DNA of 46,960 nucleotides. Source: Aquisalinus sp. GTDB taxonomy: Bacteria > Pseudomonadota > Alphaproteobacteria > Caulobacterales > Parvularculaceae. Where the stretch lies: NCBI GenBank assembly GCA_022763115.1, contig JALEGJ010000110.1, forward strand, positions 1 to 46,960. The letters run 5' to 3'. The notes below the pieces were generated by a model. The model searched no databases and was not told the DNA's origin. It worked only from the letters and a program-made list of their open reading frames with translations. Shown here piece by piece: positions 9,477 through 42,165 of this stretch. A program made the translations under genes and the position numbers. Each line of letters opens with the position of its first letter. Position 1 is the stretch's first letter.

Positions 9477-10952
9477 TCAGCTGCCAAAAACGCGCGGTGC
9501 GATCAGGTACACAGCCAGCGTAATCAGGACAATGCCAAGGGCATTCAGGCGAAAGCCGACAGCGGCCATCTTGCGAATGGGGACGTGCCCAGTCGCAAAG
9601 ACAATTGCATTGGGGCCCGTGGCAATCGGCAACATGAAGGCACAGCTCGCGGCCATGGCGGCAGGTGCAGCCAGCAGCAGCGGGTTCATCTCACCCCCCG
9701 TGGCAATGGCCCCAATGACCGGCAAAAGGGCCGAAACTGTCGCCACATTGCTGGTCAGCTCTGTCGCGAAAATCACGAAGACAACCAGGATCAGCATGAT
9801 CAGGATAAGCGGCAGTGTGGCGACACCGCCCATCTGATCGCCCAGCCAGGCCGCAAGCCCTGTGCCACTGATGGCACTTGCCAGGCTCAGGCCGCCCCCA
9901 AACAGGAGCAGCACGCCCCAGGGGATTTGCTCTGCCGTCTGCCAGTCCAGCAGGGCGCCGCGCTTTTGCTTGTCACCGGACGGCACCAGAAACATGAGGA
10001 TAGCTCCTGCGATGGCGATGACATGGTCTGTGAAGCCGGCAAAAGGCTGAACACCGAACAGCTCAAGGTTGTTCAGTGGGCGACGGAACATCCAGAAGGA
10101 GGCCACCAGCAGAAAACAGACCAGCACTCGGAACTCCGGCGTGCTCATGCGCCCGAGACCAGTCAGTCGCTCGCGTACCGTGGCAGCGCCAGCTGCGCCT
10201 GATAGGGTCTCAATTTTAAGGCCCCAGCGGGTCAACACCAGCCAGGCCGCTGGCAGCATCACTGCCACGACAGGCAGGCCGAGCATCATCCACTGGTCAA
10301 ACCCAATCGAGAGCCCAAACTGGTCCTCAAGGTAGGAGATAACGATCAGATTGGTCGGTGTGCCAACCGGCGTGCCAAGCCCGCCAATAGAAGCGCCATA
10401 GGGAATCGCCAGCAGGATGGCGAGCGTGAAAGGGGCATCCATATCGTCGCCCAATACTGACCGGGCGACAGAAAGGGCAATCGGGGCCAGCATGATCGTG
10501 GTGGCGGTGTTGGAAATCCACATCGACAGGATCGCCGAGGCCAGCATGAACCCGCCAACCAGCGCTGCCGGGTTGCTGCCTGCGCGCGCCACGATGTTCA
10601 GGGCAATGCGCGTATGCAGGTTCCAGCGTTCCACAGATTTGGCGATGATGAACCCGCCCATCAGCAGGATCACCACGCGGTTGGCGTAGCCGACTGCTGC
10701 TTCGCTGATCGGCATGACATTGGTGGCTGGCAGGATCACAAGCGGCAATAGCGCCGTGACCGGGATGGGGATGGCTTCGCTCACCCACCACACAGCCATC
10801 AGGATTGTCAGGCAGGCGACGATCCAGCCTTCCTGCGAGAGGCCATCCGGTGCGCCAAGGGCATACATGCCAAGCGCCAGTATTGGTCCCAGAAAGAGGC
10901 CAATACGCTGCGTTTTCTCCTGCGCTGTCATCTCCGGCTGGTCGCTGCTCAT
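9477..10952 (-). CDS. DASS (SLC13) family sodium/dicarboxylate symporter
   Basis: An inner-membrane transporter of 491 residues that probably imports C4-dicarboxylates or related anions with sodium. Both signature SNT-type motifs are present: WISNTATTIM in the first repeat and ELTSNVATVS in the second. These form the sodium and carboxylate sites in the VcINDY fold. The segment SEAIPIPVTALLPL near the N-terminus is also typical. It begins with a soluble stretch (MSSDQPEMTAQEKTQR). A GAGAG ribosome site precedes the ATG. It is monocistronic as far as I can see, and divergent from rph. Exact substrate (succinate, malate, citrate or sulfate) cannot be told from the sequence. Confidence 0.9.
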   Translation of the reverse strand: MSSDQPEMTAQEKTQRIGLFLGPILALGMYALGAPDGLSQEGWIVACLTILMAVWWVSEAIPIPVTALLPLVILPATNVMPISEAAVGYANRVVILLMGGFIIAKSVERWNLHTRIALNIVARAGSNPAALVGGFMLASAILSMWISNTATTIMLAPIALSVARSVLGDDMDAPFTLAILLAIPYGASIGGLGTPVGTPTNLIVISYLEDQFGLSIGFDQWMMLGLPVVAVMLPAAWLVLTRWGLKIETLSGAAGAATVRERLTGLGRMSTPEFRVLVCFLLVASFWMFRRPLNNLELFGVQPFAGFTDHVIAIAGAILMFLVPSGDKQKRGALLDWQTAEQIPWGVLLLFGGGLSLASAISGTGLAAWLGDQMGGVATLPLILIMLILVVFVIFATELTSNVATVSALLPVIGAIATGGEMNPLLLAAPAAMAASCAFMLPIATGPNAIVFATGHVPIRKMAAVGFRLNALGIVLITLAVYLIAPRVFGS

Positions 10953-12817: not shown

Positions 12818-13405
12818 TCAGCGCGGGCGAACCTGTCCGCGCCCTGTAATATCCTGTTGAACGCGCGGCGATCCGCCATAGGTAATCGTGCCATTGCCCA
12901 GCACATTGGCGCGTAGCGTTGTCGTCGCCGTGATATTGATGTTGCCGCCGCCACGCACCGTGGCTGAAACATCTGCGGCGTCCACTTCAGAGGCATTGAC
13001 TGTGCCGCCTGCCGTGACAGCAGCGGTCAGGCTTGTCTGGGCCGGGAAGCCTGCGGCCACATTGATGACGCCGCCATTCTCAATACGCAAATTGGGCGTG
13101 GACGGAACGCGAACCTCGATTACCCGGCGCGCATTGCTGCGGCAGGGACGCTTGCACTCAATCAGAAGATCGCCATCATCCGTATGCATAGCAACAAGGT
13201 CGCCGCCCTGAACAACCGTGGCAGACCAGGCAGTTGACGGGCGGATCGACACTTCACCGCCGCCCCGCAGGACGAGCGTTGAAAAGGGAGAGAGTTGAAC
13301 CGGCGCTCCCTGGCGGAAAGGTAAAACATCCTTGGCGACGACGGCGGTCATTGACATCATCAGGAGCAGGGCAACAAGCCCGCCTGCGATCCGTGCAAAT
13401 ACCAT
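12818..13405 (-). CDS. Secreted GIN-domain (DUF2807) protein, copy 1
   Basis: A 195-residue exported protein. A signal peptide (hydrophobic 8-23, likely cleavage after VVA) is followed by a predicted beta-helix of the GIN/DUF2807 type. Repeating short strands are marked by GGG (RGGGEVSI, RGGGNINI). A conserved IECKRPCRSN gives two cysteines four residues apart that could form a disulfide. GGGAGGGAGAG-type purines before the ATG form a strong ribosome site. It lies 23 bases after its paralog 13429-14025 and is surely in the same operon. The role of GIN-domain proteins is not settled; envelope or adhesion-related roles are guesses. Confidence 0.82.
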   Translation of the reverse strand: MVFARIAGGLVALLLMMSMTAVVAKDVLPFRQGAPVQLSPFSTLVLRGGGEVSIRPSTAWSATVVQGGDLVAMHTDDGDLLIECKRPCRSNARRVIEVRVPSTPNLRIENGGVINVAAGFPAQTSLTAAVTAGGTVNASEVDAADVSATVRGGGNINITATTTLRANVLGNGTITYGGSPRVQQDITGRGQVRPR

Positions 13406-40411: not shown

Positions 40412-41068
40412 ATGTTTGTTGGTCATTACGGGCCGGCCCTGATGGGCAAGGCTGCTGCGAAGTCGGTCAAGCTCTGGCATCTGTTCCTGGCGGTGCAGAT
40501 CGTCGATGTTTTCTGGGCGATTTTTATCATGACAGGCATAGAGCAGGCGCGGGTCGTGCCCGGCTTTCTCGAAGCCAGCCATCTCGACCTCTATCACATG
40601 CCCTACACGCATAGTCTGGTTGCAACCCTTGTCTGGATGCTGGCCGGGCTCATTTTCTATCGCCTCGTTCGGCCAGCCGCCGGATGGAGCGGGGCGGTCA
40701 TCATTGCCCTTGCCATTGGCTCGCACTGGCTGACCGACCTGGTCGTGCATACGCAGGACCTGCCCATCATGCTGGACGGGCCGATGGTAGGCTTCGGGCT
40801 TTGGGAGAGCCTGCTCTGGTCGCAAGTGGCAGAAGTCAGCCTGCTTCTGGTCGGCATGGTATTTTATCTTAAGAGCACATCGCCCAAATCCGGCCTTGGC
40901 CGCATTGCGCCGTGGCTCCTTTTCGGGTTCCTGTTGATATTACAGGCCTACAATCAGATCGCCCCACCACCAGAGAATATACAGGAAATGGCCCCGCTGG
41001 CGCTTGCAAGCTATCTGCTTCTGGCGGGTGCGGCGGCGCTGACAGATATGACGCGCACCTCACGGTAA
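40412..41068 (+). CDS. Integral membrane protein of unknown function
   Basis: A 218-residue inner-membrane protein with about six hydrophobic segments. Two His-rich conserved-looking motifs, HMPYTHSLVATLVW and GSHWLTDLVVHTQDLP, have the spacing and character of metal-binding sites. They resemble membrane-bound metal-dependent hydrolases (YdjM-like), but I cannot assign a family. GGGAGGAAC precedes the ATG. It follows the uracil-DNA glycosylase gene by 72 bases and precedes the structured RNA region. A hydrolase role is a guess. Confidence 0.75.
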   Translation: MFVGHYGPALMGKAAAKSVKLWHLFLAVQIVDVFWAIFIMTGIEQARVVPGFLEASHLDLYHMPYTHSLVATLVWMLAGLIFYRLVRPAAGWSGAVIIALAIGSHWLTDLVVHTQDLPIMLDGPMVGFGLWESLLWSQVAEVSLLLVGMVFYLKSTSPKSGLGRIAPWLLFGFLLILQAYNQIAPPPENIQEMAPLALASYLLLAGAAALTDMTRTSR

Positions 41069-41095
41069 AAGGCCTCAGCAGCAATTTGGAGAAGC

Positions 41096-41111
41096 TGTGA
41101 TCTGCATCACA
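41096..41111. promoter_or_regulatory. CRP-type palindromic binding site
   Basis: TGTGA and TCACA flank a 6-base spacer exactly as in the CRP consensus TGTGA-N6-TCACA. It lies about 25 bases after the membrane protein gene and upstream of a possible promoter (TTGAAT 41121, TATGTC 41143). It would control the structured RNA and mini-ORF downstream. Confidence 0.65.
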
Positions 41112-41196
41112 TAGCGCCGCTTGAATGGTTGCTACTAGCACTTATGTCAGGGCTGTTACTTGTTTTGAAAAGTTAACCGTTCTCAAGGAGGCACTC

Positions 41197-41223
41197 ATGA
41201 ACGCGCACGAAACATTTATCTAA
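41197..41223 (+). CDS. Eight-codon mini-ORF with perfect ribosome site
   Basis: AAGGAGG (41185-41191) lies 5 bases before an ATG that opens the reading frame MNAHETFI and a TAA stop. The ribosome site is better than that of most full genes in this window, so the peptide is probably translated. It ends six bases before the first hairpin of the structured region, the geometry of a leader peptide or a dual-function RNA. I do not recognise the peptide. Confidence 0.45.
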   Translation: MNAHETFI

Positions 41224-41229
41224 AGATCT

Positions 41230-41263
41230 ATTCTGAGCCCATTTTATCAGAATGATATTTTTT
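41230..41263 (+). terminator. Terminator-like hairpin after the mini-ORF
   Basis: ATTCTGA (41230-41236) pairs with TCAGAAT (41247-41253), with a 10-base loop and six T residues at 41258-41263. The stem is AT-rich, so it would be a moderate terminator. Ribosome movement through the mini-ORF could affect its folding. Confidence 0.5.
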
Positions 41264-41289
41264 GATTTCATCACTTTGTTTGTGATGCG

Positions 41290-41357
41290 GCCAGCAACAA
41301 AAGCGCACCTCTCTCCCTCTCTCTTCATGCGCTGGCGTTGCTGGCTATTTTTGTTTT
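41290..41357 (+). terminator. Strong terminator with long pyrimidine loop upstream of lepB
   Basis: GCCAGCAAC (41290-41298) pairs with GTTGCTGGC (41337-41345), and AGCGC (41302-41306) with GCGCT (41329-41333). The loop is almost only C and T. A T-rich tail follows at 41348-41357. It marks the 3' end of the candidate RNA. Confidence 0.75.
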
Positions 41358-41430
41358 GGCCCTACCAAATTTTCAGTAGCAGCTTATGCTCCCGAACGGC
41401 ATGATGGTATTTCGGATCAGGGGAATAGTT

Positions 41431-42165
41431 GTGGTGAAAAAAATCTGGGAAAAATATCGCGGGGATATCCGATTTTTCGTGATCTTCCTTTTATGTTTTG
41501 GCCTGTTCAGGTCGGTGGCTTTTGCGTCCTATCACATCCCGTCAGAAAGTATGGTCCCGACGCTTGAGGTTGGTGACAGGATCATTGTCAGCAAATGGCC
41601 CTATGGCTATTCCAAACATTCCGTATGGTTCCCGTTTTTCACGAAACTGCCTGATGCCAACAGTCGCTTGTTCAGTCGTCTGCCGGAGCGTGGCGATGTT
41701 GCCGTCTTCAAGCACACGCGAGATGATATCGTGATGATAAAGCGTGTTATCGGATTGCCCGGAGATGAAATTTCCATTGTGGACGGGGTGCTGCATGTCA
41801 ACGGCAAGGCTGTCGAGCGCAAGCCAATCCGTGCCTATGCCTATCGTGAGCATAAAGGCAGCGTTGCAAGTGTCCGGCAATATACGGAAGTTTTACCGGA
41901 AGGGATGCAGCATACGATTATTGAGCGCAGCGACACCTGGCGCGGCGATGCGGCGGGGCCGTATTTTGTGCCTGAAGGTCATGTATTCATGATGGGGGAC
42001 AATCGGGACAATTCCGCCGACAGTCGCTATCTGTCAGGGCTCGGTTTCGTACCTGTGGAGCACTTGATTGGCCGCGCAGAGATGATCTTTGCCTCCACGC
42101 ATTCCTGCCAGCAGGAGGACGGGCTGGAGTGCGCGGCGCGGCGCTTCTTCTCGGTCATTCACTGA
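41431..42165 (+). CDS. lepB: Signal peptidase I
   Basis: LepB cleaves signal peptides on the periplasmic face of the inner membrane. The catalytic Ser lies in IPSESMVPTL (Ser40 from this start) and the general-base Lys in VMIKRVIGLPGDE (Lys104). The family box MGDNRDNSADSR is complete. One membrane helix precedes the serine. The frame is open from ATG 41386, but AGGGGA (41419-41424) points to GTG 41431 or 41434 as the start, giving about 244 residues. It overlaps the convergent TetR gene by 11 bases. Because it sits far from rnc-era, it may be a second signal peptidase; the window cannot tell. Confidence 0.93.
   Translation: MVKKIWEKYRGDIRFFVIFLLCFGLFRSVAFASYHIPSESMVPTLEVGDRIIVSKWPYGYSKHSVWFPFFTKLPDANSRLFSRLPERGDVAVFKHTRDDIVMIKRVIGLPGDEISIVDGVLHVNGKAVERKPIRAYAYREHKGSVASVRQYTEVLPEGMQHTIIERSDTWRGDAAGPYFVPEGHVFMMGDNRDNSADSRYLSGLGFVPVEHLIGRAEMIFASTHSCQQEDGLECAARRFFSVIH

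Follow-up and report, generated by a model that had tools for sequence, protein, structure and literature searches.

What is encoded in the 365 bases that separate two neighbouring genes of Aquisalinus sp., and does the unit found there act on the gene behind it or on other messages? In the window, by which we mean the whole stretch of 46,960 bases that was analysed, this gap lies between the gene of a 218-residue protein (40412-41068) and a lepB-like gene, a signal peptidase S26 paralogue whose start was taken as the GTG at 41434. All on the plus strand, the gap contains a TGTGA-N6-TCACA palindrome without mismatch, an eight-codon open reading frame (mini-ORF) preceded by a ribosome site, and three hairpins, the last of which is a terminator. 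A preliminary description had likened the order of these parts to that of a regulated small RNA or a leader-peptide attenuator. The first likeness gains from the closer analysis: changes in the CRP site are symmetric, the mini-ORF is the best-kept part and the loop is pyrimidine-rich.

Judged from its sequence, the locus is likely a lineage-restricted small RNA gene with a mini-ORF under the control of CRP. For the fuller reading of 41096-41353, as the gene of a small RNA of the Hfq type, activated by CRP and containing a mini-ORF, that would act on other messages via an anti-Shine-Dalgarno loop, we see about an even chance. Directly observed are the parts and how they are conserved, genes for CRP-like and Hfq proteins, and a nine-base match to the loop. 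If real, the RNA would connect Hfq-type control with catabolite signalling in a family that has received little study.

A CRP-type operator and a conserved putative promoter block

The earlier claim of a perfect CRP palindrome at 41096-41111 is confirmed, and besides this operator, TGTGATCTGCATCACA, no other exact TGTGA-N6-TCACA occurs in the window. When up to one mismatch is allowed, the window holds three such sites against a shuffle mean of 1.28, and 17 of 100 shuffles reach three. The operator is identical in the related genome G001 (16/16) and matches at 14/16 positions in G005, where the two changes are symmetric and the palindrome is retained as TGTGACCTGCGTCACA. Across the six genomes of the genus, exact sites number 8, 6, 8, 13, 2 and 2 (G000, which carries the window, G001, G005, G003, G002 and G004), whereas the reversed pattern occurs 3, 1, 1, 0, 0 and 0 times, which makes 39 sites in total versus 5 in the control. 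The form TGTGAY-N4-RTCACA accounts for 32 of the 39, where a quarter would be expected. The motif class hence appears enriched and in use across the genus, and binding at 41096-41111 is predicted.

Other sites of this class were seen in passing. G002 (C2:948993-949027) and G004 (C1:2065075-2065109) each carry a pair of perfect CRP boxes 3 bases apart, and no other exact sites there. In G000, a perfect box (L135:1501-1516, G000:C16:21928-21943) lies upstream of the gene of a small membrane protein, which we take to resemble the Pmp3/YqaE family; similar boxes at G001:C8:18416 and G005:C1:201069 are candidate counterparts.

Downstream of the operator, a putative promoter block (41121-41141) with the extended -10-like element TGCTACTAG (41130-41138) is kept at 21/21 positions in G001 and 20/21 in G005. 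Between the operator and the -10-like TACTAG lie 21 bases. Such a spacing is the rule at class II CRP promoters, and the fit predicts activation as well as a start near 41145, where cAMP-bound CRP centred at -41.5 would activate transcription. An alternative promoter pair, TTGAAT-16-TATGTC (41121-41148), is also largely conserved and would move the start about 10 bases downstream. A generic sigma-70 promoter scan returned no match at the promoter block. Together with the fold and the three-genome alignment described below, the start near 41145 delimits a predicted transcript of about 209 nt (41145-41353), both ends being predictions.

As to the regulator, G000 encodes a CRP homologue with a cNMP-binding domain and a Crp-type HTH. 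In E. coli CAP, TGTGA is read by an R-E-x-x-x-R pattern, and the recognition helix of the homologue, RENVNRQ, keeps this pattern. A comparison with the PDB places CRP/FNR-family regulators on top, the best matches being presumably actinobacterial regulators, and E. coli-type CAP lower. The homologue scores 82.8 bits, the cut-off of the NCBIfam CRP equivalog being 266. HTH_Crp_2 has three matches in G000, the homologue among them, and two of the three exceed the HTH_Crp_2 cut-off. Since its score is far below that of the equivalog and two further HTH_Crp_2 matches exist, we regard it as a candidate regulator and no more.

The eight-codon reading frame

The Shine-Dalgarno sequence AAGGAGG (41185-41191) and the mini-ORF (41197-41223; ATG-AAC-GCG-CAC-GAA-ACA-TTT-ATC-TAA, MNAHETFI*) are present as first described. 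The pattern AAGGAGG-N4-9-ATG occurs a single time on both strands of the 46,960-base window. The segment 41184-41223 is identical in G001 (40/40) and has two substitutions in G005 (38/40), one within the spacer and one synonymous at a third codon position, so that the Shine-Dalgarno sequence and all eight codons are found in 3/3 copies. With 38/40 positions identical in G005 versus 119/176 in the remaining transcript (Fisher p = 1.6e-4), this is the best-kept part of the predicted RNA, and the sequence makes it likely that the eight codons are translated. In the folds, the Shine-Dalgarno sequence is partly open (0.18 to 0.93 per base). The mini-ORF is able to pair with the 3' arm of hairpin 2, which leaves room for a ribosome-driven switch, without reach to the terminator. 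The mini-ORF might hence yield an eight-residue peptide, or it might serve to load a ribosome, by which the 5' half would be held open and hairpin 2 released.

This raises the possibility that the peptide is the sole product, i.e. that a CRP promoter makes a tiny mRNA for MNAHETFI whose CU-rich loop is merely the head of a terminator. The superior conservation of the Shine-Dalgarno and mini-ORF segment, the synonymous nature of the only change within the frame and the modest agreement of the loop with that of G005 (13/21 in the alignment) all fit a tiny mRNA. However, a single synonymous substitution is insufficient to separate selection on the peptide from selection on the RNA, and conservation also extends to both arms of hairpin 2 and to the loop's CU character. 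Besides, we know of few functional eight-residue peptides. On balance, we consider the tiny mRNA unlikely and prefer an RNA with an embedded mini-ORF; if real, it offers a clean test case for whether an eight-codon ORF of a small RNA is selected as a peptide or as a ribosome landing site.

Fold, terminator and the question of a lepB leader

The segment 41145-41360 folds with -60.9 kcal/mol (z = -2.79), and only 1 of 200 dinucleotide shuffles folds as well. The fold contains hairpin 1 (41229-41254; 8 pairs, 91.7% of the cells paired in the three sequences), hairpin 2 (41269-41287; CATCAC-loop-GTGATG, 6 pairs), which competes with the mini-ORF pairing, and the terminator hairpin (41289-41346) with an outer stem of 10 and an inner stem of 6 pairs. 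In the window copy, hairpin 1 is predicted with a probability of 0.94-1.0 and the terminator with 1.0 for each of the three 5' starts considered, and for these two the earlier claim of three hairpins stands. Hairpin 2 is uncertain: its probability varies with the 5' start (0.30 for 41145, 0.67 for 41155 and 0.04 for 41183), and it is missing from the minimum-energy folds of shorter pieces. Its stem is invariant in the three sequences and its loop has changed. The T-rich tail that had been reported is present and T-rich in all three copies, with its position refined to 41347-41357, and the closed loop of the terminator comprises 20 nt (41308-41327) instead of the 18 nt initially given.

In the alignment of the three sequences, 96.7% of 90 stem cells are paired, compared with 25.8-52.8% for slid partners. 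Shuffling the 3' letters gives a mean pairing of 95.9%, and 169 of 500 shuffles equal the observed value, only three sequences being aligned. A single pair has changed on both sides in a compensatory manner; it lies within the terminator, the cells of which are 97.9% paired. Covariation with three sequences is not significant.

RNA polymerase would stop at the terminator (41289-41357), and Hfq would bind the U-rich tail. A Rho-independent terminator with such a tail and a gene for Hfq, which is encoded in all six genomes of the genus, are two traits of Hfq-dependent small RNAs that are present here, and binding is predicted on this basis.

In each of the three genomes, lepB lies directly behind the RNA and the mini-ORF precedes a terminator; this order also suggests a leader in cis, in which translation of the mini-ORF would decide on read-through past the terminator into the signal peptidase gene. 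Two details of the arrangement suit such a leader. The stop codon lies 5 bases before hairpin 1, so that a ribosome at this place would cover its 5' arm, and the pairing of the mini-ORF with the 3' arm of hairpin 2 means that translation could switch hairpin 2. However, the outer terminator stem is present in the folds of all three copies and forms regardless of hairpin 2, and no antiterminator is seen. The U-run that follows hairpin 1 in the window is missing in G005, and the codons of the mini-ORF include no run of one amino acid. Pairing between the lepB leader and the loop is weak (-9.3), and the lepB orthologue of G003 (76% identity) has a different upstream region without such a leader. 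Besides, lepB may have a promoter of its own: the block TTGGCCCTACCAAATTTTCAGTAGC past the terminator (41356-41380), of which the window has a single copy, is possibly a promoter or operator of lepB, and 41358-41382 is identical at 25/25 positions in G001 and 24/25 in G005. Altogether, a leader in cis seems improbable. Attenuation of lepB, the second likeness drawn in the preliminary description, was rejected on these grounds. Likewise, hairpin 1 was discarded as an early terminator because of the U-run missing in G005.

Conservation and phylogenetic range

The small RNA unit occurs in this order before lepB in three of the six genomes of the genus (Aquisalinus group, Parvularculaceae), namely G000, G001 and G005. 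Conservation in close relatives, on which the preliminary description had staked its reading, is therefore seen in two of the five other genomes; in G002, G003 and G004, neither a DNA search nor a covariance model found the unit. Compared with G005, identity rises and falls along the region, with peaks in the functional blocks: 14/27 before the operator, 14/16 within it, 3/9 behind it and 20/21 in the promoter block, followed in the transcript by 27/42 in the 5' leader, 38/40 in the Shine-Dalgarno and mini-ORF segment, 27/46 around hairpin 1 and 15/19 in hairpin 2. Next come the terminator (42/57), the tail (8/12), the block behind the tail (24/25) and the remainder up to the start of lepB (20/51). 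The coding sequence of the 218-residue protein is identical at 464/657 positions. This protein has no Pfam or NCBIfam family match; it is apparently a membrane protein and, among the examined loci, occurs only in the three RNA-bearing genomes.

Outside these three genomes, the unit was not seen in any of the sets searched, which overlap and of which the class set is a sample. A DNA search of 100 genomes found it in 3, the window's own genome counted, and a pattern search for the Shine-Dalgarno and mini-ORF segment gave 3 matches in 398 genomes of the order. A covariance model built from the three copies (R1) and run with the stricter filters of Infernal, at which some weak matches are lost, yielded 7 matches with E <= 0.5 in 149 relatives; 3 of them are the training sequences, and in the remaining four (E 0.05-0.27) the stretch inspected lacks the Shine-Dalgarno/mini-ORF, the CU run and the CRP box. 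Under the same filters, the class sample of 385 contained two matches with E <= 0.05, the window and one other (E 0.037), again without Shine-Dalgarno/mini-ORF, CU run and CRP box. Among 28 lepB-like loci, a scan of the upstream regions detected the parts of the unit in L005 (G000), L006 (G001) and L035 (also G001); its blanks are uninformative for the minus-strand loci L007, L010, L016 and L017, and L007 is the G005 locus that has the RNA. Rfam 15 gave no match above gathering in the window and two at chance level (E 2.1 and 2.5) in 41060-41440, in agreement with the earlier statement that no described family fits. A weak 19-base copy of the 5' end of the RNA lies in the same sense elsewhere in G000 (E 0.54).

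This narrow range, together with the negative generic promoter scan, is what would be expected if there were no RNA gene at all and the gap merely held conserved promoter remnants and terminator hairpins between two genes. Yet blocks of 95-96% identity with G005 stand out from the surrounding stretches of 33-64% in this intergenic region, and the native sequence folds better than 199 of 200 shuffles, so that we consider the absence of an RNA gene quite improbable.

The terminator loop and its candidate targets

The pyrimidine-rich loop CCTCTCTCCCTCTCTCTTCA (41308-41327) is the predicted seed of the small RNA. Its mean unpaired probability is 1.0 in the ensembles of all three copies, and the loops of G000 and G005, although different, share CTCTCTCCC and stay pyrimidine-rich. 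The open CU loop would cover Shine-Dalgarno sequences of the GGGAGAGAG type and thereby lower translation.

The antisense of the shared 9-mer occurs before an RTG start 4, 5 and 7 times in G000, G001 and G005, versus 2, 3 and 4 times for the reversed control. One match, GGGAGAGAGTGAATG, is common to all three genomes and forms the ribosome-binding site (RBS) of an RTX gene (products of 930, 876 and 858 residues in G000, G001 and G005) that carries a perfect CRP box 48, 51 and 55 bases before the match, respectively. The protein has RTX repeats (Pfam) and the motif HELAHGLGF, and it matches the metalloprotease family NF038122 with 46.6 bits, below the cut-off of 80. The duplex of loop and RBS is predicted at -19.2, -19.3 and -18.2 kcal/mol in the three genomes. 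The other three matches in G000 fall on the opposite strand of the RNA itself, inside a frame that we take to be CysD-like and antisense to a presumably topoisomerase-like frame. Inspection covered all matches of G000, the RTX and RNA sites of G001 and G005, and one G005 site beside its G000 counterpart.

By a hand estimate that assumes 7 other boxes, one real RBS and about 2,900 genes, a CRP box and a 9-mer RBS would coincide by chance in a few cases in a thousand; with the 7-mer GGGAGAG (49 matches, control 17) the value is some 3 to 8 in a hundred, and in both estimates the three genomes are not independent. Shuffled loops equal the pairing with the RTX RBS in 3.7%, 7.4% and 3.8% of 1000 trials for the three copies. 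The RTX orthologue of G003 (66% identity) has the RBS CTGGGAGAGAGTAC, in which GGGAGAGAGT is kept, and no perfect CRP box was found within 400 bases upstream of it. As G003 has no detectable RNA, the RTX RBS is independent of the RNA and either predates or outlives it.

The RTX gene is not the best partner by pairing energy alone. Gene starts were sampled mechanically in the window and in the stretch that surrounds the RTX gene; of the 54 obtained, the RTX RBS ranks third, and 2 of the 53 others pair better: a DUF2807 gene (12818-13405; -28.2 kcal/mol) and an SLC13-type transporter gene (9477-10952; -25.0 kcal/mol), both on the minus strand of the window. Across the genomes, GGGAGAG precedes an ATG 49, 48 and at least 62 times in G000, G001 and G005, versus 17, 21 and 13 times for the reversed control. 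Of the 49 places in G000, 20 were followed further; 7 of them open frames of at least 140 codons and 13 frames of at most 90 (one due to the end of a piece). Two of these 20 places also exceed the RTX RBS, with -25.1 and -20.4 kcal/mol. The stronger pairing at other starts indicates that the loop is promiscuous. Two other CRP-boxed genes pair weakly with it (-10.5 and -12.7).

Taken together, the loop most resembles an anti-Shine-Dalgarno element of broad reach. Of its possible targets, the CRP-boxed RTX gene attracts the most interest, and it is only moderately supported by the sequence data. In such a circuit, CRP would raise transcription of the RTX-repeat metalloprotease gene and the RNA would damp its translation, which amounts to an incoherent feed-forward loop. 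The complete picture, an alphaproteobacterial, CRP-activated dual-function RNA that combines an eight-codon ORF with a terminator loop silencing the message of a CRP-induced, secreted RTX metalloprotease in this feed-forward manner, we nevertheless regard as doubtful. L199 (G000:C8:16896-18104) encodes another protein that is more distantly related to the RTX metalloprotease, and similar matches exist in G001 and G005.

Relation to known systems

CRP-linked small RNAs are known from gammaproteobacteria. Together with CRP, Spot 42, which is repressed by it, and CyaR can form feed-forward loops on common targets. These two enterobacterial RNAs are referred to as being under CRP control in a passage of PMC8672173; the RNA described here differs in having no Rfam match above gathering. 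Among the systems compared, the nearest in design is VcdRP of Vibrio cholerae, which passages of PMC8672173 present as a CRP-repressed dual-function RNA of more than 300 nt that encodes 29 residues. Both have a CRP site in the promoter and unite a small ORF with a pairing part in one RNA; in VcdRP, according to the same passages, pairing is Hfq-dependent and uses one C-rich seed on translation start regions (PMC8672173). In contrast, activation is predicted in Aquisalinus, the ORF has 8 codons and the seed is the loop of the terminator, and no sequence link between VcdRP and the RNA of 41145-41353 was found.

No alphaproteobacterial CRP-linked small RNA is named in titles or abstracts among the matches listed, a search whose scope leaves out most of the subscription literature, and titles and abstracts under the genus name contain no description of an RNA at this locus. 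In the passages of PMC3927594 and PMC5869019 considered here, the sole mention of "CRP-dependent" is a reference to CyaR. None of the known systems compared is a family match. GsrN of Caulobacter is, like our candidate, alphaproteobacterial and lineage-restricted, and it uses an exposed C-rich loop to pair with target mRNAs in their 5' leaders; in contrast, it is a general-stress RNA near ecfG/nepR with its loop in the 5' half, it activates katG, and the passages of PMC5869019 that describe it mention no mini-ORF. A C-rich loop can thus also activate, and repression by the Aquisalinus loop is a predicted sign of control. The CCUCCUCCC-loop RNAs of Rhizobiales (SmelA075/SmelA099) likewise expose anti-Shine-Dalgarno pyrimidine motifs in hairpin loops, yet they carry three or four CCUCCUCCC hairpins according to passages of PMC3927594, whereas our candidate has a single hairpin of this kind, its loop being of the CUCUCUCCC type, behind a mini-ORF.

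The aR8 RNAs SisA-D and CrfA of Caulobacter are alphaproteobacterial Hfq RNAs, as the predicted RNA would be, and passages of PMC12559287 describe an anti-Shine-Dalgarno 10-mer and a starvation-induced partner. The single-stranded aR8 core UUUCCUCCCU given there (PMC12559287) is absent from 41145-41357, the N-formylglutamate amidohydrolase neighbour of most species is absent, the neighbours being the 218-residue protein and peptidase S26, and the seed lies in the terminator loop. Following this model, the purine-rich AAGGAGG could serve as a sponge that titrates anti-Shine-Dalgarno small RNAs, as the G/A-rich loop of CrfA does with SisA-D; this is very improbable, for although the Shine-Dalgarno segment belongs to the best-kept block and sponging of UUUCCUCCCU RNAs by CrfA is reported for Caulobacter in passages of PMC12559287, only five contiguous pairs with the aR8 core are seen by eye (GGAGG/CCUCC), no aR8 RNA reaches the gathering score in the window, and selection reaches past the Shine-Dalgarno segment and over the codons as far as the stop, an extent that sponging would not require.
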